A DNA stretch of 34,531 nt, from NCBI GenBank assembly GCA_022509025.1, contig JAFLUB010000031.1, positions 1-34,531 of the forward strand, given 5' to 3'. The stretch comes from Oscillospiraceae bacterium (GTDB taxonomy: Bacteria; Bacillota; Clostridia; UBA1381). The first letter of the stretch is position 1. Each line of letters starts with the position of its first letter. The notes under the pieces are model-generated. The model did no database searches. It saw only the letters and a list, made by a program, of their open reading frames with translations, and had not been told where the DNA came from. The position numbers and the translations under genes are program-made. Positions 128 through 18,720 of the stretch are shown piece after piece.

Positions 128-1516
128 ATGGATCAAAATACGATTGACAACGCTATTTATGAAAAATATATCACCCCGACAAAACTTAAATCAAAAAAAT
201 TTATCGGCATTGAAATAGAAATGCCTGTGGTAAACCTCAAAAAAGAACCTGTTGAGGAAAAGGTTATTTTTAAATTATCAAAAGCGTTCTGCGAACGCTT
301 CGGTTTCAATGTCATAGGACGCGACAGCATAGGGAACGCTAACTCTATGCAGGACGACAAAACAGGCGACAACCTTTCATTTGACTGCTGTTATTCAAAC
401 CTTGAATTATCTCTCGGCAAAGGAGATAATCTTCACCAAATAAAGGAGCGTTTTGACAAATATTACACTTTTATAAACGATTTCCTTTCAGACTACAACT
501 ATACTCTTACGGGAATGGGTATAAATCCTTATTATGATATAAACCACAATAAACCTATAGAAAATGAGCGGTACAGAATGCTTTATCATCATTTGCATTC
601 ATACCCGAAATACGAGGGGAACGGCTTTGCGTTCCACCACTTCCCTTCATTCGGCACGTTTACAAGCGCGTCGCAGGTGCAGATTGATATTTTTCACGAG
701 GACTTAATCCCTGTGATTAATACCTTTGGCAGATTGGAACCTTTCAAGTCGCTCCTGTTTTCAAACTCACTCCTGCCTGAGGAAGCTGATTTACTCTGCG
801 CGCGCAATATGCTTTGGGAGCGAAGTATGCAGGGATATAACCCGCATAATATCGGTATGTTTGAATATGAATTAAAAGACTGCGACGATTTAGTCGAATA
901 CATTAAATCAACAAGCATTTACTGCACTATGCGTGACGGAAAATATATAAATTTTACTCCTGTTCCGATAAACGAATATCTTAAGCTTGACAGCGTACAG
1001 GGAGAATATTTTGACGGTACAGGATATAAAGATATCGAATTTGAACCGTGTCTTGAAGATATTGATCATCTTAGGACATTTAAATTTGTTGATCTTACCT
1101 ATCGCGGAACAATTGAGTTCCGAAGCATGTGTACTCAGCCCATAGCTGACAGCATGAGCATAGCTGCATTTCATATAGGTCTTTTAGAGCGCGTTTCGGA
1201 ATTGCAGGGGCTTTTAAACTCAGACAACGTTATTTATGCTCACGGCTACAGCGCATCAGAACTGCAAAGAATGTTCGCAAGAAAAGAACTGCCTGATTTT
1301 GTGGATAAAGAAAAGCTTACTAAAACGCTCCTGCGTATACTTGAGCTTTCCGAATCAGGGCTTAAGCAGCGCAATATGAATGAGGAGATTTTCCTTGAAC
1401 CTCTTTATGAGCGCGCCCGAACTTTATCTAATCCGGCAAAAAATATGCTTGAAGGTATTGAAAACGGAGCTTCTTTAGAGTATTATATTAAAGAGTATTC
1501 TCTTCTGAAGAGGTGA
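128..1516 (+). CDS. GCS2-like carboxylate-amine ligase (glutamate-cysteine ligase family)
   Basis: This 462-residue protein resembles the GCS2 branch of the glutamate-cysteine ligase superfamily, ATP-dependent enzymes that join the carboxylate of glutamate (or a related acid) to an amine. Visible family marks are GIEIE at residues 27-31, the stretch NLELSLGKGDNLHQI, the GINPYYD region, a SASQVQID segment that normally holds metal and substrate residues, and YRGTIEFRS near the C-terminal third. The start is set by AGGAG eight bases before ATG. It is followed by a second, differently built glutamate ligase (gshA) and an amidotransferase, so the true substrate may be a gamma-glutamyl compound other than gamma-glutamylcysteine. 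The TGA stop lies inside the left end of a family A repeat. The family is fairly certain, the substrate unknown. Confidence 0.72.
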   Translation: MDQNTIDNAIYEKYITPTKLKSKKFIGIEIEMPVVNLKKEPVEEKVIFKLSKAFCERFGFNVIGRDSIGNANSMQDDKTGDNLSFDCCYSNLELSLGKGDNLHQIKERFDKYYTFINDFLSDYNYTLTGMGINPYYDINHNKPIENERYRMLYHHLHSYPKYEGNGFAFHHFPSFGTFTSASQVQIDIFHEDLIPVINTFGRLEPFKSLLFSNSLLPEEADLLCARNMLWERSMQGYNPHNIGMFEYELKDCDDLVEYIKSTSIYCTMRDGKYINFTPVPINEYLKLDSVQGEYFDGTGYKDIEFEPCLEDIDHLRTFKFVDLTYRGTIEFRSMCTQPIADSMSIAAFHIGLLERVSELQGLLNSDNVIYAHGYSASELQRMFARKELPDFVDKEKLTKTLLRILELSESGLKQRNMNEEIFLEPLYERARTLSNPAKNMLEGIENGASLEYYIKEYSLLKR

Positions 1517-1688
1517 TTAACGTGAAAAAACACGTTAATCAGGTTTAATTGCCCGCGCGAATATTTTCTCGCTGTAGCTTCAAAAACAGGCACATGGATA
1601 TAATATCCATTTAACGCCTTATCTGCCCACGATAAGTACGTTAAGTTTTTCATTACTATTTGTGGGCAGAAAGGCTATGGATATTAAA
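1510..1688 (+). repeat. Family A structured element, copy 1 (upstream of gshA)
   Basis: This 179-bp copy fills the gap before gshA. A left hairpin pairs GATTAACGTG (1515-1524) with CACGTTAATC (1531-1540). A long right hairpin pairs TAATATCCAT (1601-1610) with ATGGATATTA (1677-1686), GCCTT (1616-1620) with AAGGC (1671-1675), and TCTGCCCAC (1622-1630) with GTGGGCAGA (1662-1670). The right stem contains the candidate translation start of gshA. This copy also carries a local palindrome at 1594-1610, where TATCCAT could instead pair with an upstream ATGGATA. A GTG at 1522 with a preceding GAGGTGA opens an 8-codon frame ending at 1548. Other copies are at 6661-6899, 7349-7588 and 18537-18720. Confidence 0.85.
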
Positions 1689-2915
1689 TTGTATTTGAAA
1701 AATAAATATATATTTGACGGGCTTTTCGGTCTTGAACGTGAAACGCTGCGTGTCACAGCCGATGGCACGATGTCAAAAAAACCACATCCTTTCGGCGAAA
1801 ATAAATATCTGGACCGCGATTTTTGCGAAAATCAGCTTGAACTGATTACGCCCGCATTTGAGAGCATTGACGATTTAATGTTAAGCCTTGAGAAGCTTGA
1901 CAAAGACGCGCGCGCCGCTCTTAGAGATATTAACGAGTATATGTGGATGAACAGCAATCCGCCGCATATAGATTCTGAAAATGATATATCCGTGGCACAT
2001 TTCACCGGTGAAAAAATGTTCAAACAGGACTACCGCATGAATCTGGAACGCCGTTACGGGAAAAGACTTATGCTTTATTCGGGAATACATTTTAATTTCT
2101 CGTTTTCCGGGCAATTTATAAGCTCAATTTATGACGGCAGCGGCAGCATAAAAGATTTCACAAACGCGCTTTATTTCCGGCTTTCAAAACAGGTATTCCG
2201 ATACAGCTGGCTGATTGTTCTGCTAACTGCCGCAGGTCCTGTCTATGATTTATCGCTTGACGGCGACGGGCTTTCAGGCAGCGGATTTGACGGCTATTCT
2301 ACGCGCAGAAACGGAGATAAAGGTTACTGGAACCAGTTTATCCCAATCCTTGACTATACGGACTTAAACTCCTATGTACGCTCGATTAAAGAGTATATTA
2401 AGAAGGGTATTCTTTTCTCCGCCGGAGAATTATATCTACCTGTGCGCTTAAAGCCGCACGGAAGCAATACCTTGGAGGCGCTTGTCGAAAACGGCGTTGA
2501 GCATATTGAGCTTCGTATGTTCGACCTCAACCCGCTATCTCCTCTGGGAGTGTTTCGTGAAGATTTAGAGTTTGCGCATTATTTTCTGCTCTATCTCACT
2601 AATCTTCCCGATTTTGAATTTACACCGGAGTTACAGGAAACAGCGGTTAAAAACCATCAGGCGGCAGCACGGTACGACTTGTCTGAAATGACCATAAACG
2701 GCTACAGCGCTGAGGACGCGGCAAAAGGAATGCTTGACGATATGACTGAATACTTCAGGGACTTTCCCGATGTATTGGAGAACATAAACAGACAAAAGGA
2801 AAAAATTACGACTAATAACCGTTACTGTGTTAAGGTATATGAAAAGCTTATAGATGATTTCCAGTCTGAAATGCTTAAAATAACAAAGAAGAACGGAGGC
2901 GGCAGCAATGTGTGA
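1677..2915 (+). CDS. gshA: Glutamate-cysteine ligase, GshA type
   Basis: It makes gamma-glutamylcysteine from glutamate and cysteine with ATP, in the cytoplasm. The N-terminus carries GLERETLRV (residues 18-26 from this start), the signature of the proteobacterial-type GshA and of the GshA domain of GshAB fusions. Further marks are ENQLELITPAFES, YSGIHFNFSFS and HIELRMFDLNPLSPLG. At about 412 residues it is shorter than E. coli GshA (518) and has no ATP-grasp GshB domain. The start is uncertain. A GTG at 1662 lies wholly inside the upstream repeat. ATG 1677 has AAAGG too close to it. TTG 1689 occupies the place of the true ATG in the other three copies of the repeat. It overlaps the next gene by 8 bases, which suggests translational coupling. 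Confidence 0.85.
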   Translation: MDIKLYLKNKYIFDGLFGLERETLRVTADGTMSKKPHPFGENKYLDRDFCENQLELITPAFESIDDLMLSLEKLDKDARAALRDINEYMWMNSNPPHIDSENDISVAHFTGEKMFKQDYRMNLERRYGKRLMLYSGIHFNFSFSGQFISSIYDGSGSIKDFTNALYFRLSKQVFRYSWLIVLLTAAGPVYDLSLDGDGLSGSGFDGYSTRRNGDKGYWNQFIPILDYTDLNSYVRSIKEYIKKGILFSAGELYLPVRLKPHGSNTLEALVENGVEHIELRMFDLNPLSPLGVFREDLEFAHYFLLYLTNLPDFEFTPELQETAVKNHQAAARYDLSEMTINGYSAEDAAKGMLDDMTEYFRDFPDVLENINRQKEKITTNNRYCVKVYEKLIDDFQSEMLKITKKNGGGSNV

Positions 2916-3675
2916 ACTATTCGGAATAAGCAGTCAATCCTCTGTTGATGTGCGCGGATATCTCGAAGAATTTTACTCTCACAGCAGGCAGCACCCGCAC
3001 GGCTGGGGACTTATGCGTGAATCCAACGGCAAAATTGAAATCATAAAAGAATGCGTATGCGCGTCACAAAGCGCAATTCTTAATAATATCATAGCCGAAA
3101 CTGAGCCTCAGACAAACTTGCTCGCGCATATACGTCTTGCAACAATCGGTTCTGTGAAACACGATAACTGCCACCCTTATACAGGTGTTGACAATTCAGG
3201 ACGGCACTGGACACTTATACATAACGGCACCATTTATTCGGGCACGCATCTTTCAAAATATTTATTCTCTCAGACAGGTGATACTGATTCTGAACGAATA
3301 CTGTTATACCTGCTCGATGAGATGAACAACGTGATAGAAAAAAACGAAGCCGCGCTTTCTGTGGAACAGAGATGCTCTGTTATAGATAATATAGCCATTG
3401 CGCTATCGCCAAGAAACAAGCTTAATCTTATGATTTATGACGGTGAAATTTTATATGTTCATACGAACATGAAGGATACGCTTATGTATAAGACTATTGA
3501 GCAAGGAATAGTTATTTCAACGCAATCACTTGACGATGACAAGTGGGAACACTTCCCCATGACTCAGCTTTGCGCTTTTAATAACGGAACGAAAATATTT
3601 GAGGGTACTAACCACGGAAATGAGTTCATTCCGACACTTGAATACATAACGGCACTTGACGCAATGAATATTTAA
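2908..3675 (+). CDS. EgtC/YafJ-like class II glutamine amidotransferase
   Basis: This 255-residue Ntn-type amidohydrolase begins Met-Cys-Glu-Leu-Phe-Gly. Removal of Met exposes Cys2 as the catalytic nucleophile, as in class II amidotransferases. HIRLATIGSV, HNGTIYSG and GDTDSERIL match the YafJ/EgtC subfamily, which has the glutaminase fold without a fused synthase domain. EgtC itself removes gamma-glutamyl groups in ergothioneine synthesis. Placed directly after two glutamate ligases, with an 8-base overlap and GGAGG inside the end of gshA, a gamma-glutamyl amidohydrolase role is a reasonable inference. A nitrogen-donating glutaminase working with an unseen partner is the alternative. The TAA stop abuts the first arm of the palindrome between the convergent genes. 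Confidence 0.78.
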   Translation: MCELFGISSQSSVDVRGYLEEFYSHSRQHPHGWGLMRESNGKIEIIKECVCASQSAILNNIIAETEPQTNLLAHIRLATIGSVKHDNCHPYTGVDNSGRHWTLIHNGTIYSGTHLSKYLFSQTGDTDSERILLYLLDEMNNVIEKNEAALSVEQRCSVIDNIAIALSPRNKLNLMIYDGEILYVHTNMKDTLMYKTIEQGIVISTQSLDDDKWEHFPMTQLCAFNNGTKIFEGTNHGNEFIPTLEYITALDAMNI

Positions 3676-3851
3676 GGGACTGTTGCTTTTAGCGCAGAAC
3701 GTTTAAAGACATGAATACTATAATCATAAAACAGAAAAATTTAATTATATGAAAAAAGCCTTTAAACTACGAACAAAACTCACCACTTGGAGTACAAACG
3801 TACACCATCGGGTGAGTTTTGTCCGTTCTGCATCTAAATTCAATCAGTCCC
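3676..3851. repeat. Nested palindrome between convergent genes (family D)
   Basis: The gap between the amidotransferase and smpB stops folds into a branched cruciform. Outer arms GGGACTG (3676-3682) and CAGTCCC (3845-3851) enclose GCAGAACG (3694-3701) with CGTTCTGC (3824-3831). Inside these are two side hairpins: GTTTAAAG (3701-3708) with CTTTAAAC (3760-3767), and the perfect 12-bp pair ACAAAACTCACC (3773-3784) with GGTGAGTTTTGT (3811-3822). No U-tract follows the outer stem on either strand, so it is not a canonical intrinsic terminator, though it may end transcription from both sides. Confidence 0.75.
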
Positions 3852-3861
3852 TTTATGCATA

Positions 3862-4335
3862 TCAGTATCTGTTCATACTTTTTAACGTGCGCTCAATATT
3901 CCGCCGCGCGTCCTTTTTAGCTATATCAGCGCGCTTATCATAGAGCTTTTTACCTTTTGCAACAGCAAGCGACACTTTAACAAGCGAGCCTTTAAGATAT
4001 ACCGAAAGCGGTATCAGCGCGTAGCCATCCTGCTGCATCTGACCTACGAGTTTCATTATCTCCTTTTTATGGAGCAGCAGTTTCCTTTCGCGCATCGGAT
4101 CGCGGTTGAATATATTCCCCTGTTCAAACGGGCTTATATTCATTTGCTTTATATATACCTCGCCGTCCTTTATCGACGCATATGCATCGGTAAGGTTAAT
4201 CTTGCCCTGACGCGCCGATTTTACCTCTGTTCCGCAAAGCTCTATACCCGCCTCAAGCGTTTCGATTATGAAATACTCATGACGCGCTTTTTTATTCTGT
4301 GCAAGAGTTTTTGTGTTTTCTGTTTTTCCCGCCAT
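3862..4335 (-). CDS. smpB: SsrA-binding protein SmpB
   Basis: This 157-residue protein has the usual SmpB length and order of motifs. It binds tmRNA and brings it to stalled ribosomes for trans-translation. Seen here are the N-terminal [42 protein letters not shown], and the basic C-terminal tail with GKKLYDKR and a [13 protein letters not shown] segment that enters the decoding centre. ATG is preceded by AAGGAGG at ideal spacing. It has its own promoter and ends at the palindrome between convergent genes. The tmRNA gene is often nearby in Firmicutes but is not in the adjacent gaps, which are too short. Confidence 0.96.
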
Positions 4336-4362
4336 GGGTAATCCTCCTTATCTTTTTTAACT

Positions 4363-4391
4363 ATTCTACCACAATCATTTTATGAAATCAA
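4363..4391 (-). promoter_or_regulatory. Promoter of smpB
   Basis: On the minus strand TTGATT (4386-4391) and TAGAAT (4363-4368) are 17 bases apart, about 28 bases before the smpB start and after the thioesterase stop. smpB can therefore be transcribed apart from the nadK-argR-recN group. Confidence 0.65.
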
Positions 4392-4404
4392 ATAAATTCA
4401 TGTG

Positions 4405-4875
4405 TCATGATGGGCGCTTATTCCTCGCAATATACCTTTTTTCGCCCTCACAATACATCTTTTTTTCATAGATATCATTCTCATTATACGTAATCGGCGC
4501 TACCTTTGCCGGCTTTCCTGATTTATCAAGAGATACCATAGTAAAAAACGCTGTGAGCGCGATTTGTTTTCTGCCTTTTATAGTATCCTCGGATTCGACC
4601 GTTACAAACACCTCCATTGAAGTGCGTCCGGCATATATCACCTGCGCCTTACAGGTTACAAGCTCGCCGACAAGCACCGGTCTTTTAAAGTTAAGCTCCT
4701 CAACTCTTGCCGTCACACAATTCGTGTGTGCGTGCTTCTGAGCAGCGACGCCCGCCGCGCTGTCCATCAATTTCATTATCTCGCCGCCGTGAACGTTACC
4801 GGCAACATTTGCCTGCATAGGCAGCACAAGCTGCGCAAGCACTGTATATGAATCCTTCATCTGTTTTGCTTTCAT
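4405..4875 (-). CDS. Acyl-CoA thioesterase, hotdog fold (YkhA/YciA-like)
   Basis: This 156-residue single-hotdog protein likely hydrolyses acyl-CoA thioesters in the cytoplasm. VHGGEIMKLMDSAAGVAA carries the conserved Asp of the acyl-CoA hydrolase family. VTARVEELNFKRPVLVGE and the GRTSMEV stretch form the strands that follow the long helix. The ATG at 4875 is chosen because GGAGG lies six bases upstream; an upstream in-frame start would place the ribosome-binding site inside the coding region. It is separated from recN by a family B palindromic element and is probably co-transcribed with it. The acyl specificity cannot be read from sequence. Confidence 0.88.
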   Translation of the reverse strand: MKAKQMKDSYTVLAQLVLPMQANVAGNVHGGEIMKLMDSAAGVAAQKHAHTNCVTARVEELNFKRPVLVGELVTCKAQVIYAGRTSMEVFVTVESEDTIKGRKQIALTAFFTMVSLDKSGKPAKVAPITYNENDIYEKKMYCEGEKRYIARNKRPS

Positions 4876-4897
4876 GTTAACCTCCATTCAATTATAA

Positions 4898-4997
4898 AGC
4901 AGAAAATAAACAAGCAGATTGCTCTTTTGAGGAACGCCGACGTATGCGGATACGTGGGGTTCCAAAAAAGGGTGATATGCGCAGTTTATTTTTCGCT
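4898..4997 (-). repeat. Family B mosaic palindrome, copy 1 (recN to thioesterase)
   Basis: Read on the minus strand, the last recN codons and stop (AGCGAAAAATAAAC, 4984-4997) pair with GTTTATTTTCTGCT (4898-4911) just upstream of the thioesterase ribosome-binding site. They enclose module X (4931-4963), a 33-bp hairpin with GGAAC/GTTCC ends and an ACGTAT/ATACGT inner stem. Module X recurs at 11633-11665 and 19151-19183, but the enclosing arms are different at each locus. Confidence 0.75.
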
Positions 4998-6659
4998 ATG
5001 CGCGTTTTTAAGCATTTCCTTTGCATGGTTTATGGCAAGTTCGCTTATTTCACCGCCGTCGATTATTCTCGCCAGTTCCTGTTCCCTGCCGCTGTCGTCA
5101 AGTTCGGTGAGCGAAGTGGATGCCATTTCACCGTCTGTATCCTTTTGTATCAGGTAATGATTGTCCGCCGCTGCTGTGAGCTGAGGAAGATGCGTTATAC
5201 ATATTACCTGCTTGCTTTTTCCGATGCCGGACAGCTTTTTAGCAATACTCATCGCCGCCTTACCTGAAACACCCGTGTCTATTTCATCAAAGATAAGCGT
5301 GTCAACTCCGTCAGTATCGGCAAGAATTGACTTGATGGCAAGCATGACTCTCGAAAGCTCACCGCCCGACGCTATTTTCACAAGCGGCTTCAGCGGTTCA
5401 CCCGGATTTGCGCTTATAAGGAACTCAACCTTGTCCATTCCGTTTTCATAAAAATCGTTTCCGCTTTCTATCTGCACATGGAACTTTGCTTTCTCCATGT
5501 TGAGCTCTCTCAATGCTTCTTCTATCCCCTTCTGAAGCACGCTTGCAGCTTCCCTGCGGCGTTTGGAAAGAGCATTTCCCTTCTTTGTAAGTTCATCTGT
5601 TATACTTTTCAGCTGTTCCTTTAATTCGTTTGTTTTTTCATCGCTCAGCTTTATATCGTTTAAATCACTTTCCGCCTTTTTCAGATAATCCAGAATATTC
5701 TCTATGCTTCCGCCATATTTGCGTTTGAGACGTGAAATCAGGTCAAGACGCTCCTCTATATCATTGAGCGTTTGTTCGTCAAATTCCACGCTATCGCTAA
5801 ATTCCTTTATCTCGTGCGCTGTATCCTCTATCTGGTACATAATACCGCTTAAAGTCTCATACATCGCTTTAATCTGCGGATTCAGACCGCTTATTTCAGA
5901 CAAGGCATTCACGGCTATACTTATACCGTCGTAAGCGGACTGCTCTTCTTCGCCGCCGTATATATTCTGATACGCCTCTCTCGTACAGTTTGTTATAAGC
6001 TCAGCATTGGCATATATCTCACGCTGTTCCTTTAAGTCATCTTCCTCGCCCTTTTCAAGAGAAGCTTTTTTTATCTCGTTCACCTGATATTCAAGCAAAT
6101 CAATTCTCTGCATCTTTTCCTGCTCGTCCATTTCAAGCGAGGCAATTCTTTTTTCAATTTCACGTTTTTTTCTCAGTATTTCCCTATAGTCGTTTATATA
6201 CTCCTGATTATCCGCGTAAGCGTCTAAAAAAGCAGTATGCTTGACAGGAGTCAGAAGTGCCTGATTATCATGCTGCCCGTGTATATTTATTAAGCTGTCT
6301 GAAATATCCCTTAAAATATTCAATGTCACAGCCATGCCGTTAACCCGCGCTACGCTTTTGCCGTCACGCGTAATCTGGCGCGTGATGATAATTTGTTCAT
6401 CATCCGCGTCTATATCGTTTTCAGCAAGAATATCAAGCGCATCCGCTGTCGCGTCAAACACAGCCTGAACGACCGCCTTATCAGCGCCGTAACGCACAAG
6501 CTCCTTATTGGCTCTATCGCCTAAAATCATATTTATTGAATCTATTATTATCGACTTGCCCGCGCCGGTTTCACCTGTAAGCACACTCACGCCTTCGTGA
6601 AAGTCCACGTCCAGCTTATCGATTACAGCCACATTTTTAATAGAAAGATGGTTTAGCAT
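4986..6659 (-). CDS. recN: DNA repair ATPase RecN
   Basis: RecN is an SMC-like cytoplasmic ATPase recruited to double-strand breaks. The 557-residue protein has Walker A GETGAGKSI (29-37), a long coiled-coil middle broken by a hinge-like part, the ABC signature SGGELSRVMLAIK and Walker B TLIFDEIDTGVSG. ATG 6659 gives the family-typical N-terminus MLNHLSIKNVAVID. A longer frame from an upstream GTG adds ten residues encoded by the family A repeat and is judged artefactual. argR-recN adjacency behind nadK is conserved across Firmicutes, where spoIVB often follows; here a thioesterase follows instead. Its likely ribosome-binding site, GGTGATT, is paired in the right stem of the repeat. Confidence 0.96.
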   Translation of the reverse strand: MLNHLSIKNVAVIDKLDVDFHEGVSVLTGETGAGKSIIIDSINMILGDRANKELVRYGADKAVVQAVFDATADALDILAENDIDADDEQIIITRQITRDGKSVARVNGMAVTLNILRDISDSLINIHGQHDNQALLTPVKHTAFLDAYADNQEYINDYREILRKKREIEKRIASLEMDEQEKMQRIDLLEYQVNEIKKASLEKGEEDDLKEQREIYANAELITNCTREAYQNIYGGEEEQSAYDGISIAVNALSEISGLNPQIKAMYETLSGIMYQIEDTAHEIKEFSDSVEFDEQTLNDIEERLDLISRLKRKYGGSIENILDYLKKAESDLNDIKLSDEKTNELKEQLKSITDELTKKGNALSKRRREAASVLQKGIEEALRELNMEKAKFHVQIESGNDFYENGMDKVEFLISANPGEPLKPLVKIASGGELSRVMLAIKSILADTDGVDTLIFDEIDTGVSGKAAMSIAKKLSGIGKSKQVICITHLPQLTAAADNHYLIQKDTDGEMASTSLTELDDSGREQELARIIDGGEISELAINHAKEMLKNAHSEK

Positions 6660-6660
6660 G

Positions 6661-6899
6661 TTAATCACCATAGCCTTTCTGCCCACAAATAGTAATAAAA
6701 ATCATTAACGCACTTATCATGGGCGGATAAGGCGTTAAATGGTGATTATGCCCATGTGCGTTTTTCGAAGCCTGCGAGAAAAAACTCGCACGGGCAATTA
6801 AATCTGATTAACGTGATTGTGAAACAACAAGGTTCCGGGGTATCCGCCCGCAATTTATTGCGCCGGCGGGTCGGGTTCTTCTTTTTCACGTTAATCTCC
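6661..6899 (-). repeat. Family A structured element, copy 2 (upstream of recN)
   Basis: This 239-bp copy lies between the argR stop and the recN start, oriented toward recN. TAATCACCAT pairs perfectly with ATGGTGATTA (plus-strand arms 6739-6748 and 6662-6671), covering the likely recN ribosome-binding site. The left hairpin loop holds an extra roughly 70 bp with its own CGCAAT-aa-ATTGCG stem. A Shine-Dalgarno-like GGAG followed by GTG (start 6889) opens a 47-codon frame that ends at 6746, inside the anti-Shine-Dalgarno arm. It differs from copy 3 by about three substitutions and one indel. Confidence 0.88.
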
Positions 6900-6900
6900 T

Positions 6901-7347
6901 TTAACGAAATAACTTCATTAATTTCTCTGATATCTGCGCGGATTTCTCCTCGCTCGCCGTTATTATCAGCAGCGTATCGTCGCCTGCTATTGAACCGAGA
7001 AAGTCTCCGCGCATAGACGCGTCAACAGACGCTGCCACAGCCGATGCCATTCCGGGATACGTTTTCACTACCACATTGTTCATAGCGTATTCAACGCTCC
7101 TTACAGTGTCAGTAATCATATTTATCCGTCTGTCCAGTTCACCGGATATATCATTGGATGAAGAATATATACTTCCGCCATCAGGCAAAGGAATTTTCAC
7201 AAGTCCGAGTTCCTTTATGTCTCTGGAAACAGTCGCCTGTGTCACGTTAAATCCACTTTTATTAAGTTCGCCGATCAGCTGTTCATGTGTCTTTATATTC
7301 TGCTCCTGAATAATTTTAAGTATTTGTCCCTGTCTTTTATATTTCAT
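6901..7347 (-). CDS. argR: Arginine repressor ArgR/AhrC
   Basis: This 148-residue transcription regulator represses arginine synthesis and activates catabolism when bound to arginine as a hexamer. The N-terminal winged helix-turn-helix contains KTHEQLIGELNKSGFNVTQ and TVSRDIKELGLVKIP. The C-terminal oligomerisation and arginine-binding domain carries AGDDTLLI. ATG 7347 fits the usual MKYKRQGQILKII start. The upstream GTG is part of the repeat. The gene sits between two nearly identical family A copies in direct orientation. In this gene order ArgR is often a standalone copy far from arg genes; no arginine biosynthesis gene is in the window. Confidence 0.94.
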   Translation of the reverse strand: MKYKRQGQILKIIQEQNIKTHEQLIGELNKSGFNVTQATVSRDIKELGLVKIPLPDGGSIYSSSNDISGELDRRINMITDTVRSVEYAMNNVVVKTYPGMASAVAASVDASMRGDFLGSIAGDDTLLIITASEEKSAQISEKLMKLFR

Positions 7348-7348
7348 A

Positions 7349-7588
7349 TTAATCACCATAGCCTTTCCGCCCACAAATAGTAATAAAAAATCATTAACGC
7401 ACTTATCATGGGCGGATAAGACGTTAAATGGTGATTATGCCCATGTGCGTTTTTCGAAGCCTGCGAGAAAAAACTCGCACGGGCAATTAAATCTGATTAA
7501 CGTGATTGTGAAACAACAAGGTTCCGGGGTACCCGCCCGCAATTTATTGCGCCGGCGGGTCGGGTTCTTCTTTTTCACGTTAATCTCC
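7349..7588 (-). repeat. Family A structured element, copy 3 (upstream of argR)
   Basis: This 240-bp near-identical partner of copy 2 is placed between nadK and argR. The SD-side arm (7350-7359) and its complement (7428-7437) are both ten bases and perfect. Relative to copy 2 the inner stem reads GTGGGCGGA against TCCGCCCAT, restoring a pair that is mismatched in copy 2. The 47-codon GTG frame (7578 down to 7435) is kept open with one amino-acid change. Confidence 0.88.
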
Positions 7589-7602
7589 ATTCTTCGGGCT
7601 AT

Positions 7603-8448: not shown

Positions 8449-8477
8449 TTCTCACATCACCTCCGTATTATTATTTA

Positions 8478-8506
8478 ATTTTACACTATTTTTTTCCGTT
8501 TTTCAA
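8478..8506 (-). promoter_or_regulatory. Promoter of nadK
   Basis: On the minus strand TTGAAA (8501-8506) and TAAAAT (8478-8483) are 17 bases apart, about 29 bases before the nadK start. It is back-to-back with the promoter at 8533-8561. Confidence 0.7.
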
Positions 8507-10470: not shown

Positions 10471-10547
10471 ATTACTCTCCATTCCGCCGCCCTAAAGCAG
10501 CACTAATTATACCGCGGAAAAGTATGCATATTATTATATGGCAACAG

Positions 10548-11537: not shown

Positions 11538-11553
11538 ATTTATTCTCCATTCC

Positions 11554-11703
11554 ATAACGCAAAAAGAGCTGGTCGCAAATTTCATTTGCTGCTCGCCCGT
11601 GCAACCGGGAAGCAAGCATGCCGCCCTTTTGAGGAACGCCGACGTATGCTGATACTTTAAGTTCCGAAAAAGGGTGAGATGCGCCGCCTATCTTTTACGT
11701 TAT
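11554..11703 (-). repeat. Family B mosaic palindrome, copy 2 (between M42 genes)
   Basis: The arms ATAACGCAAAAAGA (11554-11567) and TCTTTTACGTTAT (11691-11703) are complementary and cover the end and stop of the upstream M42 gene. Inside are module X (11633-11665) and module Y (11568-11609). Module Y contains a GCAAAT/ATTTGC hairpin and GCTCGCCC with CCGGG; it recurs inverted in copy 3. This 150-bp composite separates the pseudo-enzyme gene from the intact peptidase gene downstream. Confidence 0.75.
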
Positions 11704-12714
11704 ATCTCCGATTTTATTTAAATATAATCTTATATATTCAGTAGTCTCAGCTATGTCGCCAAGAGCCATAATCGACACAGGCGAATGCGAATATCGGCAT
11801 GGAATCGCCGCGCTCAGAATACGTGTTCCGTCCGCGCCGGTCTGCATCGCTCCTCCGTCCGACGAAAAAGGCACAAGTACTTTCTTCTGAAAACGTATGC
11901 CGTGTCTTTGGGCTTCTTCCGTCATAGCGTCCGTAAGATTTTTATCGGCTATAAGCGCCCTGTCCATATAGCTTATTATCACGCCGTCAGATACAGAACA
12001 CCCGCTGTTATCGTCCTTACAGCCGTACATATCTGTCGTGTCCGCGCTCCATACCGTCAGGCAAACGTCCGGATTTATCCTGTGCGAAACGATATAAGCG
12101 CCGCGCGCTCCGACCTCATGCTGAGTAAGAAAACACGCGTACACGTCATTCTTATATTCACCCTTAAACGCTTCTATGAGCGCCATACACGGCGCGCTCC
12201 TGTCAAGCGCTTTACCTTTTACCGTATTGCCAAGCGTTTCAAACTCGGTGTCAAAGGTCACATAATCTCCTTTTTTTACGCGTTTCCCGGCTGTCTCCCT
12301 GCTTGTCTCGCCTATATCTATAAAAAGCTTATCAGGCTTTACCACATTCTTTCTTTCGTCCCGCGTCTGCAAATGTATTGCTTTCATACCGATAATGCCC
12401 TTGACACCGGAATTTCCTACCAGTACCTTTTTCGATACAAGCTTGCGCGGATCAATCTTTCCTACCAATTTGAATTTCAGATAGCCTTTATCGGTAATTT
12501 CGCTTACTATAAGTCCCGGTTCATCCATGTTTGCCGTTACAGCAATTTTCTTTTCCGGATTTAATCCCTTTTTCAGCGCGATTATATTACCCATAGTGTC
12601 AACAGTCACTTCATCAGCAATGTCCTTTATTTCTTCAAGTATTATATCGCGTATATCCTGCTCATTACCGCTTACAGCATTTATTTGGGATAGTTTTTTC
12701 AGAAGCTCAGCCAT
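11695..12714 (-). CDS. M42-family protein with degraded active site (pseudo-peptidase)
   Basis: This 339-residue M42 homologue keeps the full fold but has lost key residues. The AHMDE motif reads TANMDE (Asn62 for the metal-binding His). The EEVG pair reads QHEVG (His199 for the catalytic Glu, Glu200 kept). The VDVT ligand reads VWSA (Trp222 for Asp). Asp64, Asp171 and the CRYSHSP histidine remain. It is the middle of three M42 genes and its start overlaps the upstream one by 16 bases. The reading frame is intact and well conserved, so this is not decay by frameshift. It may join hetero-oligomers with its neighbours, as mixed M42 assemblies are known in archaea. That is an inference. Confidence 0.85.
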   Translation of the reverse strand: MAELLKKLSQINAVSGNEQDIRDIILEEIKDIADEVTVDTMGNIIALKKGLNPEKKIAVTANMDEPGLIVSEITDKGYLKFKLVGKIDPRKLVSKKVLVGNSGVKGIIGMKAIHLQTRDERKNVVKPDKLFIDIGETSRETAGKRVKKGDYVTFDTEFETLGNTVKGKALDRSAPCMALIEAFKGEYKNDVYACFLTQHEVGARGAYIVSHRINPDVCLTVWSADTTDMYGCKDDNSGCSVSDGVIISYMDRALIADKNLTDAMTEEAQRHGIRFQKKVLVPFSSDGGAMQTGADGTRILSAAIPCRYSHSPVSIMALGDIAETTEYIRLYLNKIGDIT

Positions 12715-13727
12715 TCTAAATCACCCTTTTGTTCTTTGATAAATTCAGTCAGCAGACTGACTGTTGCCTTAACGTCCCTAACGTCAAGCGTCTCTACGGA
12801 AGTATGCATATACTTGAGCGGCATTGATAGAAGCGATGTCGGAATACCATCCCTGGCGGTCTGTATTTCCCATGCATCAGTACCGGTATCTCCGCCGTCA
12901 ACCTCTGTATCCGCTTTTATATTATGTCTTTTAGCCGTGTCAATCAACGCATCTGTAAGGCGCGGATGAAGATTAGGTCCCACAGAAATAACCGTTCCGA
13001 TACCGGTTTCAAATGCATTGTCACTATTATCGGGCGTTATACCGTGGCATACGTCTATTGCAACGGCTATATCAGGATTTATCCCGTAAGCCGCTGTTTT
13101 TGCACCGCGGCAGCCGACCTCCTCCTGCACCGTTGCCACAGCGCATACATCAACCTTAAGTTCAGCGCCGGATATATTTTTCAAAACAGTAATTATTGCC
13201 GCAACACTCGCTCTGTCGTCCAGCGACTTACCGCTGAACTGATTTTTGCCGAGTTCTCCCAATGACTTTGAGAGTGTTATGCTGTCACCAACGGATACCT
13301 TTTCTTTAACCGTCCGCGCGTCAAGACCGGTATCTACCGCCATATCTTTTATCTTTGCCGTTTTGCCATCTTCAAGAAGATGCTCGCTTTTTATACCGAT
13401 AACACCCCACAGGTCTTGTTTACCATGCACTGTAACCTCCGCTGACGGAAGAGTTCTTTCATCAACTCCGCCTACGCAGGCAAACGTCAGAAATCCTTCG
13501 TCTGTTACGGATGTTACCATAAGTCCTATTTCATCACAATGCGCTTCAATCATAATCACAGGCGCATTTTTTATTCCGCAGCGTTTAAAGGCTATAACAT
13601 TTCCGAGTGCGTCTACTCTTACATCATCACAGTATGGAGAGAACAATTCGCTTATCTTTTCGGTAAGCGAATATTCCCTTCCCGACACGCCGCGCATATT
13701 ACTAAGTTCATTTATCAGTTTTTTCAT
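12699..13727 (-). CDS. M42-family aminopeptidase, intact active site
   Basis: This 342-residue paralogue of the two following genes has complete catalytic residues: EAHCDEIG (His63, Asp65), KSLDDRASV, TVQEEVGCRG, AIDVCHG and the LKYMHTS histidine. The gene starts two bases after the murD stop, so the pair is tightly coupled. No strong ribosome-binding site is visible, which fits reinitiation after murD. A preference for acidic or other N-terminal residues cannot be told from the sequence. Confidence 0.9.
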   Translation of the reverse strand: MKKLINELSNMRGVSGREYSLTEKISELFSPYCDDVRVDALGNVIAFKRCGIKNAPVIMIEAHCDEIGLMVTSVTDEGFLTFACVGGVDERTLPSAEVTVHGKQDLWGVIGIKSEHLLEDGKTAKIKDMAVDTGLDARTVKEKVSVGDSITLSKSLGELGKNQFSGKSLDDRASVAAIITVLKNISGAELKVDVCAVATVQEEVGCRGAKTAAYGINPDIAVAIDVCHGITPDNSDNAFETGIGTVISVGPNLHPRLTDALIDTAKRHNIKADTEVDGGDTGTDAWEIQTARDGIPTSLLSMPLKYMHTSVETLDVRDVKATVSLLTEFIKEQKGDLEWLSF

Positions 13728-13729
13728 AA

Positions 13730-15103
13730 TTACACTAACTCATTCACTATTTTTTTGAATAAATTTCCGCGTTCCTCAAAGTTTCTGAACATATCAAAGC
13801 TGGTGCTGGCTGGTGACAAAATTACAATATCATCCTTTTTCGCCCTGCTCCTTGCCGCGTTTACGGCATCTTCGTAAGTTTCGACGCGGATTACCTCTAT
13901 ATTCTTTCCTTTTCCCGTCCGGCTTATTTCCTTATCTAACGCTTCCTGTATTTTATCTGCCGTAGCGCCGATAAGAACAAGCGTTTTTACATATGACGCT
14001 AAAGACGGTCCCAAATCATCATACGGAATGCCTTTATCCTTTCCTCCGGCAATCAGAATAACCTTTTGAGGGAAAACCCGCAGAGTATTAGTTGTCCTGT
14101 TCGGACTGGAATCGATTGAACTGTTATAATATCTCACTCCGTCAACCTCTCTGACAAGTTCTATGCGGTGTTCAACACCTCCGAAGCTTTTGGCTATGTC
14201 CAGTATTGCCTCGTCGCCAACAAGCCCGTTTACGGCAGCTATGGCCGCCATATAGTTTTCCACATTATGCATACCCGGTATCTTTATATCTTTTATGTCC
14301 AGAACGCTGACATTACCGCGCTTTATAACATCTCCGTCAAGATACACATCCGCTATGCCTTCGCGAGAGAAGTATCTTATAGCGCCTTTAGCCTCACGAC
14401 CTATACCGGCTGTCACGTCATTATCGGCATTAGCGATAAGAATATTTCCCTCTTTCTGATAAAGCATAATATTTTTCTTAGCGTCTATATATTCCTGATA
14501 GTCTTTATGAACATCAAGATGGTTTGGACTTATATTGGTTATAACTGCAATTTCAGGAGATTTTCTCATTGTATGAAGCTGAAATGATGATAGTTCTAAA
14601 ATTACCCAGTCATCCTCTTTCATTTTTTCAGTATCTGTAAGAAGCGGATTTCCGATATTTCCGCCAAGCCATGTTGTATATCCGGCTTTAGTCATCATCT
14701 TGTGAATAAGAGTCGTTGTGGTTGTTTTTCCGTCACTTCCTGTCACTGCAATTATATGAGACGGACACACATCAAAGAAAACCTCCATTTCACTGGTTAC
14801 AACGCTTCCTTCTGATTTTGCTTTAAGAAGCTCCGGCACATCATATCTCATTCCTGGCGTTTTGAATATTATATCACCTGACAGATTATCAAGATAGTTT
14901 TCACCCAGATTCATTTTAACGCCCAAATCCAGCAATTCTCCGTATGTTTCGCCCAAATCCTCTGCAGTGCGTTTATCACATGCGGTGACATCTGCGCCAA
15001 GTTCCACAAGATATTTTATCAGCGGGAGATTGGATATACCTATTCCTATAACGGTAATATTCTTATTCCTTACGCTTTGTTTAAATTCTTCAAGCTTTGT
15101 CAT
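13730..15103 (-). CDS. murD: UDP-N-acetylmuramoylalanine--D-glutamate ligase
   Basis: It adds D-glutamate to UDP-MurNAc-L-Ala in peptidoglycan precursor synthesis in the cytoplasm. The 457-residue protein has an N-terminal Rossmann-like UDP-binding domain, the ATP loop TGSDGKTTTT (121-130), SPNHLDVH, GVEHRIELV and the YNSSIDSSPNRTT segment typical of clostridial MurD. ATG 15103 is preferred because GAGGAG lies eight bases upstream; an in-frame GTG three codons earlier overlaps that site. It stands apart from the usual division and cell-wall cluster and instead heads a run of peptidase genes. Confidence 0.95.
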   Translation of the reverse strand: MTKLEEFKQSVRNKNITVIGIGISNLPLIKYLVELGADVTACDKRTAEDLGETYGELLDLGVKMNLGENYLDNLSGDIIFKTPGMRYDVPELLKAKSEGSVVTSEMEVFFDVCPSHIIAVTGSDGKTTTTTLIHKMMTKAGYTTWLGGNIGNPLLTDTEKMKEDDWVILELSSFQLHTMRKSPEIAVITNISPNHLDVHKDYQEYIDAKKNIMLYQKEGNILIANADNDVTAGIGREAKGAIRYFSREGIADVYLDGDVIKRGNVSVLDIKDIKIPGMHNVENYMAAIAAVNGLVGDEAILDIAKSFGGVEHRIELVREVDGVRYYNSSIDSSPNRTTNTLRVFPQKVILIAGGKDKGIPYDDLGPSLASYVKTLVLIGATADKIQEALDKEISRTGKGKNIEVIRVETYEDAVNAARSRAKKDDIVILSPASTSFDMFRNFEERGNLFKKIVNELV

Positions 15104-15123
15104 ACTCCACACTCCTCATATAG

Positions 15124-15129
15124 ATTATA
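15124..15129 (-). promoter_or_regulatory. Possible -10 box of the murD operon
   Basis: On the minus strand TATAAT lies between the terminator of the preceding operon and the murD ribosome-binding site. No good -35 is visible at 16-18 bases, so the call rests on position and the perfect -10 only. Confidence 0.35.
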
Positions 15130-15135
15130 TACACT

Positions 15136-15163
15136 AAAAAAGGCAGGATGTACTCCTGCCTTT
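15136..15163 (-). terminator. Intrinsic terminator after ispH-rpsA
   Basis: On the minus strand GGCAGGA and TCCTGCC form a seven-base stem around GTACA, followed by six T. It lies just after the ispH-rpsA stop and ends the long uvrC-to-rpsA transcription unit. Confidence 0.92.
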
Positions 15164-15174
15164 AAAAATTACAA

Positions 15175-17292
15175 TTATTCAGCCTCTGCAGGTGTTTCTG
15201 TTTCAGCAACTTCCTCTGCGTCAGCCGCTTCAGCCGCTTCTTCTGCAGGTGTTTCAGCAGCAGGAGCTTCAGCCGCTTCTTCCTCAGCAGGCTCAATCTC
15301 TATTACCTCTTCAACCTCAACTTCAGGATCGGTTGAGTATACAAGAGCTTCCTCTTTCATAGGCTCAGCCGGGATTTCCTCCTCAACTTCCTCAACCTTT
15401 TCCGGTACAGGAATGAGGGCACGGATTGAAAGGCTTATCTTCTTATCCTCCCAGTTAAGGTCTGTAACCTTAGCTTCTACCTCTTCACCGATTGTAAGCA
15501 CGTCCTCCGGCTTTGTTATTCTTCTGTCCGCAATCTGCGAAATGTGAATAAGTCCGTCTACGTTAGGCATGATTTCAGCAAATGCGCCGAAAGGCATCAT
15601 GCGCACAATCTTACACTTTATAACATCGCCAAGATTTATCTTTGACTGAGCGATTACCCACGGGTTATCCTCTGTCTTCTTATATCCAAGCGAAATCTTC
15701 TTTGTTTCAGCATTTATATCCTTGATATACACGTCAAGAACGTCGCCTTCCTTAACAACCTCTGACGGATGCTTAATCTTATTCCACGAAAGCTCGCTGA
15801 TATGAACAAGACCGTCTACTCCGCCGATATCGACAAAAGCACCGAATGAAGTGAGCGACTTTACAGTTCCCTGATATCTCTTTCCTACTTCCGCGTCTGC
15901 CCAGAACTTTTCTTCTCTTGCTTTTCTTTCAGCTTCAATAAGAACTCTTACTGAACCGATAACGCGCTTTCTTCTGTCGTCAATTTCAATAATTTTGTAG
16001 GTAACGGTTGTTCCCACAAGGCTCTGAAGGTCCTGTACAAATCTGCCCGATGCCTGACGCGCGGGAATAAATACCTGTGAACCATCAGTAAGAGCGATAA
16101 CGCCGCCCTTAACGGCCTTAATGATTTTTCCTTCCAAAATTTTTTCTTCTTCATAAGCCGCTTTGATTTTGTTCCAGCTTTCCATAGCTACCAATTTCTT
16201 TCTTGATAAAACTACTTTTCCCTCACCATCATTTACGCCGACAACGTAAACCTTGATTGTATCGCCTTCTTTTACAACATCAGACGGCTTAAGTGACGGG
16301 TCATCCGTAAGCTGGTCAGCCGCAAGCTGTCCGTTATACTTGAAACCGCCAAGATCGACAATTACCTCGTTGGCGCGAACCTCCACGACAGTACCATCAA
16401 TAATGTCCCCGTTGTTTAGAGTCTTGCTCTCATACTGTTCAAACAGTTCAGCAAAATTCTCTTCGTTTTTTACATTTTCACTCATAGCCTTTACTACCTC
16501 CTCGATAATACTGCCCGGTGTTGATGCTCCGGCAGTAATACCTATTTTATTATATGTTTTTTTTTGAGGTAAATCCTCAAATGTTTCGATATGGTAGGTT
16601 ACAGGACAGTTCCTTTTAGAAATTTCAAAAAGCTTCCTTGTATTCGAGCTTTCCATCCCCCCGATTACAATCATCATGTCTGAATTTCTTGAAAGTTCAT
16701 CTGCCTCTTTTTGCCTATCCTTCGTCGCACTACATATTGTATCAAAAATCAGGGTACTTTTGCAAGTTTTTTTTATATTTTGTACGATTTCAACAAAAAA
16801 TTCTCTATTAATTGTAGTTTGTGCTACAACGCAAAGGTCTTTTTCCCTAAGTTTATCGTCAAATTCATAGTCAAGAGCGTTTATTATAAGCGCTTCATTA
16901 CCGCACCAGCCGTTTATTCCGATTACCTCAGGATGATTCCTGTCGCCTACAATCACTATCTGATACCCCTTTTTATGATGCTCCGACACAATCTTATGTA
17001 TCTTCGACACAAAAGGACAGGTAAGATCTATATAGTCCCTCCCCTGAAGCTCTTTATATACATTTTCTCCGACACCGTGCGCACGTATTACCACCGTCAT
17101 ATCCCGCGGTATTTCCTCTACTTTTGTATATGACTTAACGCCTTTTTCCTCTAAATCCTCTATAACCTGACGGTTATGAATAAGATGACCGAGGGTGGCG
17201 AGTTTCTTTTTTTTCTCTGTTTCATCGTACACGCTGTCCACGGCGCGCTTAACACCATAGCAGAATCCCGCTGTCTTAGCTACTTTTATCAT
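15175..17292 (-). CDS. ispH: Fusion of IspH (HMBPP reductase) and ribosomal protein S1
   Basis: Residues 1 to about 285 are 4-hydroxy-3-methylbut-2-enyl diphosphate reductase, the last MEP-pathway enzyme. Three cluster cysteines are present, in GFCYGV (Cys11), DLTCPFV and DTICSAT, with RAHGVG. The rest carries four S1 RNA-binding domains: GDIIDGTVVEVRANEVIVDL, LEGKIIKAVKGGV, YQGTVKSLTSFGAFVDIGG and VIKCKIVRMMPFGAFAEI. A Glu/Ala-rich acidic tail of about 70 residues follows. The 705-residue fusion is a known clostridial arrangement, and its S1 half likely serves as RpsA. GAGGTGA sits before ATG 17292. It closes the operon behind cmk and plsC, where cmk-plsC-ispH/rpsA is a recurrent order. Confidence 0.95.
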   Translation of the reverse strand: MIKVAKTAGFCYGVKRAVDSVYDETEKKKKLATLGHLIHNRQVIEDLEEKGVKSYTKVEEIPRDMTVVIRAHGVGENVYKELQGRDYIDLTCPFVSKIHKIVSEHHKKGYQIVIVGDRNHPEVIGINGWCGNEALIINALDYEFDDKLREKDLCVVAQTTINREFFVEIVQNIKKTCKSTLIFDTICSATKDRQKEADELSRNSDMMIVIGGMESSNTRKLFEISKRNCPVTYHIETFEDLPQKKTYNKIGITAGASTPGSIIEEVVKAMSENVKNEENFAELFEQYESKTLNNGDIIDGTVVEVRANEVIVDLGGFKYNGQLAADQLTDDPSLKPSDVVKEGDTIKVYVVGVNDGEGKVVLSRKKLVAMESWNKIKAAYEEEKILEGKIIKAVKGGVIALTDGSQVFIPARQASGRFVQDLQSLVGTTVTYKIIEIDDRRKRVIGSVRVLIEAERKAREEKFWADAEVGKRYQGTVKSLTSFGAFVDIGGVDGLVHISELSWNKIKHPSEVVKEGDVLDVYIKDINAETKKISLGYKKTEDNPWVIAQSKINLGDVIKCKIVRMMPFGAFAEIMPNVDGLIHISQIADRRITKPEDVLTIGEEVEAKVTDLNWEDKKISLSIRALIPVPEKVEEVEEEIPAEPMKEEALVYSTDPEVEVEEVIEIEPAEEEAAEAPAAETPAEEAAEAADAEEVAETETPAEAE

Positions 17293-17305
17293 TTTAATCA
17301 CCTCA

Positions 17306-17875
17306 TTATTCAAGAGATCGTATGCTTTCCAGAATTTCATCAGCTCTTAGCTGCGTCTCTTCCGGAGTAAGCTTAACTCCGAAGTCAAGATAAATCGGTG
17401 TTCCGTACGTTACAGTTATCTTTCCCATCCACTTATATTTGCCGGATATGCAGACAGGAACAACAGGAACCTTCGCGCGGTGCGCTATCATAGCAACACC
17501 CGGCTTAGCTTTTACTTTTCTTCCGTCTTTTATTCGATGTCCCTCAGGAAACATAAGCATTGTTTTATTTTCAGAAAGAATTCTGAGCGAAGCTTTTATA
17601 GCGCCTATATCCCCTTTTCCGCGATGTACCGGAAACGCGCCCAATGATTTAATCAGCGCGCCGAAAACAGGGTTTTTAAAAAGCTCCTCCTTGGCCATAA
17701 ACGACAGTTTCCTTTTACACGTAACAGCAGCTATGACCGGATCCCAGTTACTTCTATGGTTAAACGCGGTTATAAGCCCGCCTTCTTCCGGAACGTTTTC
17801 GTATCCGACGCGCTTTACACGGAATACGAACAGCATCGCAAAACGTACTATAACACGTATTATATTATACAACAT
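17306..17875 (-). CDS. plsC: 1-acyl-sn-glycerol-3-phosphate acyltransferase
   Basis: It adds the second acyl chain to lysophosphatidic acid at the inner face of the membrane. The 189-residue protein has a hydrophobic N-terminus, the NHRSNWD motif (39-45, the NHx4D catalytic pair) and FPEGHR, the glycerophosphate-binding motif. It overlaps the end of cmk by 11 bases and is followed 13 bases later by ispH-rpsA, so all three are probably co-translated or coupled. Confidence 0.94.
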   Translation of the reverse strand: MLYNIIRVIVRFAMLFVFRVKRVGYENVPEEGGLITAFNHRSNWDPVIAAVTCKRKLSFMAKEELFKNPVFGALIKSLGAFPVHRGKGDIGAIKASLRILSENKTMLMFPEGHRIKDGRKVKAKPGVAMIAHRAKVPVVPVCISGKYKWMGKITVTYGTPIYLDFGVKLTPEETQLRADEILESIRSLE

Positions 17876-18536
17876 TTATTATAAGCTCCTTTATTTTTTC
17901 TACAACCTCGTCAAAACAAAGTTCCGTTGTGTCCAAAAGCACTGCATCTTCCGCTTTCTTTAAGGGAGAAACCTCTCTTTCAGAGTCATTTTTATCACGG
18001 TATGCAATATCGCTCTTTATCTTTTCAAAATCGCACTCAATGCCCTTCCGGCACAGTTCATCATAGCGCCTTTTTGCTCTTGCCTCTATTGACGCTGTGA
18101 GGAATATCTTAACCTGCGCGTCAGGCAGAACATGAGAACATATATCACGTCCGTCCATAATCACATTTGCGCTTTTTGCCATCTCACGCTGCATATCAAC
18201 GAGCTTCACGCGCACCTCCGGAATGACCGCAACATCCGACGCTCCAACAGACACATCCTCTTCACGTATACGTTCCGAAACGTCAAGTCCGTTAAGATAC
18301 ACACGCTGTCCGTCTCCTGTATTCCGCATATCTATCTTTATTCCGTCAAGACCTGCTATGAGCGTTGGAACATCATTTTTGATATCAATACCGTTTTCTA
18401 TCGCAAAAAGCGCGACGCATCGATACATTGCACCGGTATCAATATATGTGTATCCCAAATCCTTCGCTACAGTCTTTGAAACCGAGCTTTTTCCCGCGCC
18501 CGCAGGTCCGTCTACCGCTACTGAAATATAATTCAT
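17865..18536 (-). CDS. cmk: Cytidylate kinase
   Basis: It phosphorylates CMP and dCMP. The 223-residue protein carries the P-loop GPAGAGKSS (10-18), a YIDTGAMYRC segment, VIMDGRDICSHVLPDA and an RRYDELCRKG lid region. ATG 18536 gives the family N-terminus MNYISVAVDGPAGAG. Longer frames read into the family A repeat and begin with repeat-encoded residues. The ribosome-binding site is weak (ATGGATA) and lies in the right stem of that repeat, so cmk translation is a candidate for structural control. Confidence 0.96.
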   Translation of the reverse strand: MNYISVAVDGPAGAGKSSVSKTVAKDLGYTYIDTGAMYRCVALFAIENGIDIKNDVPTLIAGLDGIKIDMRNTGDGQRVYLNGLDVSERIREEDVSVGASDVAVIPEVRVKLVDMQREMAKSANVIMDGRDICSHVLPDAQVKIFLTASIEARAKRRYDELCRKGIECDFEKIKSDIAYRDKNDSEREVSPLKKAEDAVLLDTTELCFDEVVEKIKELIINVV

Positions 18537-18720
18537 GTTAATATCCATAGCCTTTCTGCCCACAAAGGTAATATAACGAAAAATCTTTAACACTCATATC
18601 GTGGGCAGATAAGGCGTTAAATGGATAATATGCCCATGTGCCTGTTTTCGAAGCTTGCGAGAAAGTACCCGCACGGGCAATTAAATCTAAATAACGTGGT
18701 TTATCACGTTATTTCTCCTC
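18537..18720 (-). repeat. Family A structured element, copy 4 (upstream of cmk)
   Basis: This 184-bp copy lies between aroH and cmk. The left hairpin is AAATAACGTG with CACGTTATTT, a compensated variant of the GATTAACGTG stem in other copies; its first arm contains the aroH stop. The right stem pairs TATCCAT with ATGGATA (7 bp perfect, plus-strand arms near 18621-18630 and 18539-18548), then the conserved TCTGCCCAC/GTGGGCAGA stem. The GTG frame (18707 to 18687) is only six codons. It is the most diverged copy in the loop of the right hairpin. Confidence 0.83.

Follow-up and report, generated by a model that had tools for sequence, protein, structure and literature searches.

The closest described counterparts of the element considered here are short genomic repeats, leader RNAs, mobile introns and viral ribosome-recruiting RNAs. 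The element is a folded RNA of about 165 nt (about 235 nt where its 5' hairpin loop carries an insert). It was found in contig JAFLUB010000031.1 of an Oscillospiraceae bacterium of the gut (assembly GCA_022509025.1), and the whole contig of 34,531 nt is called the window below. Four copies lie in the window directly before gshA, recN, argR and cmk, each in the orientation of its gene and with its 3' end reaching the start codon, as a first-pass annotation of the sequence had claimed.

Miniature inverted-repeat transposable elements (MITEs) and repeats of the repetitive extragenic palindrome (REP) type are short, non-coding, present in many copies per genome and patchily distributed. The element resembles them in these respects, and its copies in the host genome are nearest to each other. 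It differs in lying nearly always in sense orientation between a Shine-Dalgarno sequence and a start codon, in showing no duplication at the one clean insertion site, and in having a long RNA fold with a pseudoknot that is kept by covariation. Riboswitches and leader RNAs that sequester a Shine-Dalgarno sequence are similar in another way. In the element, helix P3 forms between an upstream arm and the start region, and a pseudoknot domain stands directly before the start codon. Unlike in those systems, no common pathway is seen among the genes, the element is missing from the same genes in close relatives, copies occur in tandem, and there is no Rfam match.

Another comparison is with mobile introns. 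One report (PMC3984707) describes a group I intron controlled by cyclic di-GMP, in which RNA processing places a ribosome-binding site upstream of the start codon. Like bacterial group I introns and IStrons, the element is a mobile folded RNA whose insertion must be tolerable. It is unlike them in its size (about 165 nt), in matching no intron family, in giving no evidence of splicing, and in its placement between Shine-Dalgarno sequence and start codon. Finally, a study of a viral intergenic region internal ribosome entry site (IRES) in E. coli (PMC9458429) states that tertiary structure is not needed for recruitment of the prokaryotic ribosome. This IRES is likewise a pseudoknotted RNA at a start site, and it can drive bacterial translation. 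In the element, by contrast, the fold is maintained by covariation.

The element is an insertion in the native spacer between Shine-Dalgarno sequence and start codon, and it is absent from the same genes in relatives of the same genus. Filled and empty orthologous sites, the hallmark of a mobile interspersed element, are found for four genes: cmk, recN, argR and clpC. The empty sites consist of a Shine-Dalgarno sequence, a short spacer and a start codon in 15 of 15 relatives for cmk, in all 14 shown for argR, and in 12 of the 13 shown for recN. The thirteenth (G006) has another subtype of the element at the same site. In the host genome clpC carries a core-only copy, which by eye is absent from all 29 relatives shown. 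Filled sites exceed empty ones by 164-170 nt in 11 of 12 comparisons for cmk (109 nt in the other), by 232-239 nt for argR (14 comparisons), and by 226-230 nt for recN (13). When the filled recN site of G006 is set against the empty site of G002, the flanks are 86-94% identical and the junctions fall inside the spacer. There is no target-site duplication in this comparison, the only clean site. The clpC copy has TGATT on either side, which can be read as a duplication or not. A target-site duplication or guide based on this TGATT was not adopted, since the recN comparison has no duplication.

We know of no kind of element that seeks the bases between a Shine-Dalgarno sequence and a start codon. 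From the observed insertion site, orientation, copy number and fold, we consider it fairly probable that a non-coding, apparently non-autonomous mobile RNA element invades this spacer and substitutes its own folded start region. Transposition would be the source of the copies. In this model, the element inserts in sense into the spacer, without evident target duplication, and its transcript would then fold into P1 (reaching into spacer bases), P2, and P3 enclosing P4 with a pseudoknot to the P4 loop. Because the native Shine-Dalgarno sequence is now about 165 nt away, the gene would be translated from the 3' end of the element, where an AGAAAGG box and the stretch AUGG-NNAUU lie at a near-constant distance from the start codon. 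Since P3 pairs this stretch with the upstream arm, the fold may dampen or gate initiation.

The fixed orientation, and the junction at recN without evident duplication, would also suit an element that moves as single-stranded DNA. In such a derivative of IS200/IS605, or relative of the REP/RAYT type, the fold would serve transposition and the RNA would have no role. The 5' hairpin lies beside GGAG-like bases, which presumably resemble the tetranucleotides of REP elements, and the genome has five Y1-family matches, one of them RAYT-like by eye. However, GGAG does not keep a fixed distance from the hairpin, as it would with a strict tetranucleotide cut, and core-only copies persist before genes. 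G-U also exceeds A-C in paired columns, as expected of a sense RNA: 117 vs 66 in alignment A5 and 185 vs 97 in A4, both fitted to a model with a preference for G-U over A-C, and slightly (34 vs 26) in the model-free A2. We regard an element folded only as DNA as very improbable here.

The host genome assembly comprises 2.49 Mb in 85 contigs and is 87.6% complete. A BLAST search with the cmk copy gave 40 matches scored among 102 candidates. A covariance model, the check that the first-pass annotation had proposed, was built from 26 of the genome's copies and found dozens more in the host and its relatives. In the host it has 88 matches with E values up to 0.1; 54 of these score at least 129 bits over the whole model, and those below are shortened copies, remnants or weak matches. 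Position counts use 73 of the 88, namely the 54 full-length copies and 19 shorter ones. The excluded 15 are weak matches: several sit opposite a counted copy, on the other strand, and two (C2:34076 and C15:42612) were read as remnants.

Copies within the genome have a mean identity of 86%, and nearest neighbours share 87-98% (30-copy set). A usable neighbour was available for 51 of the 62 host copies in the set, and for all 51 the nearest one belongs to the same genome, as it does for 18 of 49 copies from other, thinly sampled genomes. Overall this makes 69 of 100, compared with 13 in shuffles. Copies can also stand in tandem and then share one spacer: L146 has three in a row with the 5'-most truncated, L180 has two, and L243, L052 and L164 are additional tandem or nested cases. 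In such arrays the copy adjoining the start codon (the 3'-most) is presumably the newer one. Because the element sits in a spacer that lacks it in relatives, has been amplified within the genome and occurs in tandem at the same spacer, a mobile element taking over a ribosome-binding site is a better frame than a shared riboregulator, although both are compatible.

Among the nearest relatives, 64 of 150 genomes (the host included) match at E up to 0.01, with a patchy distribution inside genus and family. Class-wide, 31 of 391 genomes match at 1e-6, again with the host included, and in a phylum-wide draw of 299 the host alone matches. These counts are lower bounds, since the large searches score few candidates per genome. 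An exact 20-mer search found at least 85 stretches. The 80 listed come nearly all from metagenome-assembled or uncultured genomes titled Clostridia or subgroups, many of them from animal guts, and include one named strain, Ructibacterium gallinarum, which has at least one core copy (L115). Phage and plasmid records searched with the cmk copy gave no match; one viral contig matches, and a second pattern matched none of the viral contigs. Near-alike copies (285 bits over a 165-nt stretch) occur at L036 and L307, whose genomes are placed in two genera of the same family, which reflects either recent transfer or a mis-binned contig.

The position of the element relative to genes is nearly constant. 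A start codon and open reading frame (ORF) in the same orientation lie directly downstream of 52 of the 54 full-length copies, and 18 of the 19 shorter matches precede a start codon, the remaining one running off its contig. In other genomes, where the pattern and the model used for finding copies exclude the start codon, 113 of 117 distinct copies have an ORF downstream, and in 65 of these 113 the start lies 8 nt from ATGG. Of the four exceptions, three occupy inner positions in tandem arrays and the fourth is truncated where its contig ends. Measured from the A of AAAGG, the start codon lies at precisely 19 nt in 29 of 52 full-length and 12 of 18 shorter copies; gshA was counted at a later TTG (25 nt from AAAGG), although a TTG lies at 19. 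Orientation to genes is not random, as nearly all copies are sense and 5' of a start codon.

The first-pass annotation had placed the likely ribosome-binding site in an arm of the element. The pairing of the start region (P3) was found as claimed, but the host gene's own Shine-Dalgarno sequence sits upstream of the element. In the 20 nt upstream of 53 host copies, pairing with the 16S tail has a mean of -7.9 kcal/mol, compared with -2.0 in 158 nearby controls, and reaches -6 or better in 37 of 53 stretches vs 14 of 158 controls. The gap between Shine-Dalgarno sequence and P1 is mostly 1-5 nt, though the distance varies.

Alternatively, the RNA might be removed or bridged, either by self-splicing that joins the native Shine-Dalgarno sequence to the start or by a ribosome that jumps the folded element. 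Removal would restore normal spacing, 45 of the 53 upstream stretches pair at -4.5 kcal/mol or better with no decay as copies diverge, and the remnant C2:34076 consists of Shine-Dalgarno sequence, P1 and start codon only. On the other hand, no group I or group II intron core is matched in Rfam, either in the window or in a relaxed search of the gshA copy, and the element is shorter than introns of either group. By eye, the upstream Shine-Dalgarno sequence is missing at L165 and L168 (one copy shared by two species) and at several core-only copies, and by a crude measure the start codon is tied to the 3' end of the element more tightly than the Shine-Dalgarno sequence is to its 5' end. We regard removal or bridging as quite unlikely.

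Several core-only copies without an upstream Shine-Dalgarno sequence still precede ORFs by eye, which suggests that the core can serve as a start region. Its AGAAAGG box is complementary to the CCUUUCU in the 16S tail of Firmicutes.

The first-pass annotation had described a long hairpin. The hairpin is present, yet the description was incomplete, with helices P1 and P2, a pseudoknot and dozens of copies to be added. The fold begins at the 5' end with hairpin P1, followed by P2, a second hairpin in which an AU is bulged, and by P3 enclosing P4, whose loop forms the pseudoknot (TGCCCAC with GTGGGCA). The arms named earlier are TAATCACCAT/ATGGTGATTA in the recN and argR copies, which are 99% identical across 206 nt, and TAATATCCAT/ATGGATATTA in the gshA copy. 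In the cmk copy, with left arm TATTATCCAT, the seven P4-side pairs are kept as stated; the next is a mismatch, followed by two further pairs. Folded singly, the gshA and cmk copies have z scores of -6.1 and -6.5 against dinucleotide shuffles, and none of 200 shuffles did as well.

In 26 host copies, 96.5% of cells pair and double changes occur at 9 of 49 pairs. In a set of 51 model-found matches, 50 of them from other genomes, double changes occur at 45 of 49 pairs. There are 392 double-change cells in this set, whereas shuffles give 107 and sliding no more than 79, and 92.1% of cells are paired vs 72.0% shuffled. The model used to fit this alignment contains every helix except the pseudoknot, which biases the alignment towards those helices; the alignment includes matches with P1 and P2 only (L238, L244-L247) and a second subtype with a misaligned pseudoknot. 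The excess over chance in added copies agrees with the selection for pairing proposed earlier for the arms now called P3, where all nine pairs show double changes across the 51 copies. The pseudoknot, which is outside the model, has double changes at 4 of 7 pairs (for instance TGCCTGC/GCAGGCA and TGCCCGC/GCGGGCA). P1 extends into the host-spacer flank: bases beside its consensus, in or adjoining the spacer, pair with the inner arm in 112 of 141 cells, compared with 73 shuffled and a maximum of 92 in 10,000 shuffles (47 of 54 copies). An alternative helix (P4'), part of the minimum-energy fold, would bind the AGAAAGG box. It was not adopted as the conserved fold: its seven own pairs have no double changes, although there is almost no variation among the sequences.

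One full-length copy is kept at one gene in three related genomes or species (G270, G122 and G154). Between G270 and G122, the core formed by P3, P4 and the pseudoknot differs at 2 of 89 positions, P1 and P2 at 15 of 84, and the upstream flank at 11 of 110. This comparison suggests, but does not prove, that the core changes slowly.

A retained copy of this sort would also be expected of a true riboregulator, riboswitch-like or protein-bound, in which a signal opens P3 and controls a regulon that copying merely assembled. P3 is a conserved helix of the kind expected in a cis-regulatory RNA with a sequestered start: it pairs the stretch from AUGG up to just before the start codon, and has double changes throughout. 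The predicted unpaired probability around the start, from a folding model that excludes pseudoknots, is 0.28 for full-length copies (52), 0.40 for shorter ones (18), and 0.46 for empty sites of four genes (71), so that full-length copies lower the predicted openness. Against a riboregulator stand the patchy distribution even inside the genus, the competing helix for the AGAAAGG box with its lack of double changes, and the downstream genes. These include dnaN, dnaX, clpC, ftsH, cmk, aspS-like, murG-like and purC-like genes and others, as judged by eye from N-termini; family tests covered eight window proteins only. That one common signal precedes unrelated genes was thus rightly noted, as they look like housekeeping genes of many kinds with no evident shared pathway. 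For this reason a single-ligand regulon is unlikely, and the gene set gives no clue to a ligand. The riboregulator as a whole is an unlikely, though not negligible, explanation.

Two roles for start codons within the element were rejected. A GTG follows the native Shine-Dalgarno sequence in P1 of most host copies, but a leader peptide was rejected, as the P1 loop varies in length by single bases, with loss of frame, and no start stands at this place in L038 and L050, which are GC-rich copies. The element's own ATG (in GGCUAUGG) is in frame for many genes and out of frame in several, and was rejected as a general start; it is a possible start for gshA.

Several observations weigh against invasion of the spacer by a mobile element that brings its own start. 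Two of the 54 full-length copies have no ORF. The AGAAAGG box lies 14 nt from the start codon, which is long for a Shine-Dalgarno sequence. The upstream Shine-Dalgarno sequence is not weaker in copies that diverge more from the model (rho 0.09, p 0.50, 53 copies), and therefore may still be used, though most such sequences would persist by chance alone at this level of divergence. At the three-species locus, G122 and G154 differ at 2 of 89 core positions and at 0 of 84 in P1 and P2, the opposite of a core that changes more slowly. No transposase, reverse transcriptase or autonomous copy could be tied to the element, Y1 being the only enzyme family searched for. A search for an autonomous copy with the 5' half of the element scored the best 40 of 64 candidates, and its 52 listed matches all fall on known copies. 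The five Y1-transposase loci of the host, whose assembly is 87.6% complete, have nothing like the element.

The earlier statement that no known riboswitch core is recognisable agrees with Rfam 15, which has no match at the gathering score on either strand of the window. A relaxed search of 211 nt around the gshA copy gave five sub-threshold matches, each far under gathering. No similar element was found in open-licence papers, and a description in a subscription journal is possible.

A bolder proposal, which we put forward tentatively, is a class of mobile RNA that targets the ribosome-binding site. It would recognise the arrangement of Shine-Dalgarno sequence and start codon (perhaps as mRNA on the 30S subunit), insert, disable the native signal, supply a portable folded start, and so rewire dozens of housekeeping genes. 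If true, this would be a natural self-spreading ribosome-binding site, and one folded RNA could replace the translation start of many housekeeping genes. The element would offer a compact pseudoknot for the study of folded bacterial translation starts, and would raise the question of how insertion aims at a feature that is meaningful only in mRNA.

Positions of the element copies and associated sequences in the window
Feature	Position	Strand	Basis
Shine-Dalgarno-like AAGAGGTG left 5' of gshA copy	1508..1515	+	sequence
gshA element copy	1515..1687	+	183.1 bits, covariance model
gshA copy P1	1515-1524/1531-1540	+	
gshA copy P3	1601-1610/1677-1686	+	
gshA copy P4	1611-1623/1631-1644	+	
gshA copy pseudoknot	1624-1630/1662-1668	+	
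gshA copy AGAAAGG box	1668-1674	+	
recN element copy, GC-rich insert in P1 loop	6661..6895; start codon 6658-6660	-	166.4 bits
recN Shine-Dalgarno AAAGGAG, now apart from start codon	6896..6902	-	sequence and empty sites in relatives
argR element copy, same P1-loop insert as recN	7348..7584; start codon 7345-7347	-	160.2 bits
argR Shine-Dalgarno GGAG, apart from start codon	7585..7588	-	sequence
cmk element copy, P1 arm AAATAACGTG at 18705-18714	18537..18714; start codon 18534-18536	-	178.5 bits
cmk Shine-Dalgarno AGGAG, apart from start codon	18715..18719	-	sequence; relative L200 is insert-free and reads AAGGAGAAATAATTATG

In the gshA copy, P2 is partly disrupted. The mechanically listed ORF of gshA begins at GTG 1662, inside the element copy; a likelier start is the TTG at 1689 or the element's ATG at 1677, both of which are in frame. 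The recN and cmk products score above NCBIfam cut-offs. The best match of the argR product is TIGR01529 (128.5 bits, under the cut-off of 130.45), and that of the gshA product is NF002688 (271 bits, under 425).

In the recN and argR copies, the P1 loop carries a GC-rich insert of about 65 nt (about 6819-6886 and 7508-7575). The same insert is present in L009 and L027, with related forms at C3:50784 and C2:34753. Several subfamilies (L042, L225, L237 and others) have CCTCC directly 3' of P1, which could pair with the native upstream Shine-Dalgarno sequence; it is absent from the host's subfamily.

The second subtype (L209, L234, L236, L237, L239, L241, L242 and L243) has the same plan of P1, P2 and P3 with another pseudoknot sequence. 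It ends in a GGCGG...AATGGAGATT-like stretch right before the start codon, and is the form that sits at recN in G006. L244-L247 may be related to the element: there, P2-like modules (GCCCGTGCG/CGCACATGGGC and variants) adjoin long AT-rich hairpins, and both P4 and the pseudoknot are missing.

The window also contains a second family of intergenic repeats (AGGAACGC-GACGTATRC...), which has no connection with the element, at 4908-4993, 11610-11695 and 19150-19184. Its third copy sits between 25-nt inverted repeats (19114-19138 and 19267-19291) and looks like a MITE. At the contig end, 34377-34531, a 57-nt repeat occurs twice, with its starts 98 nt apart.

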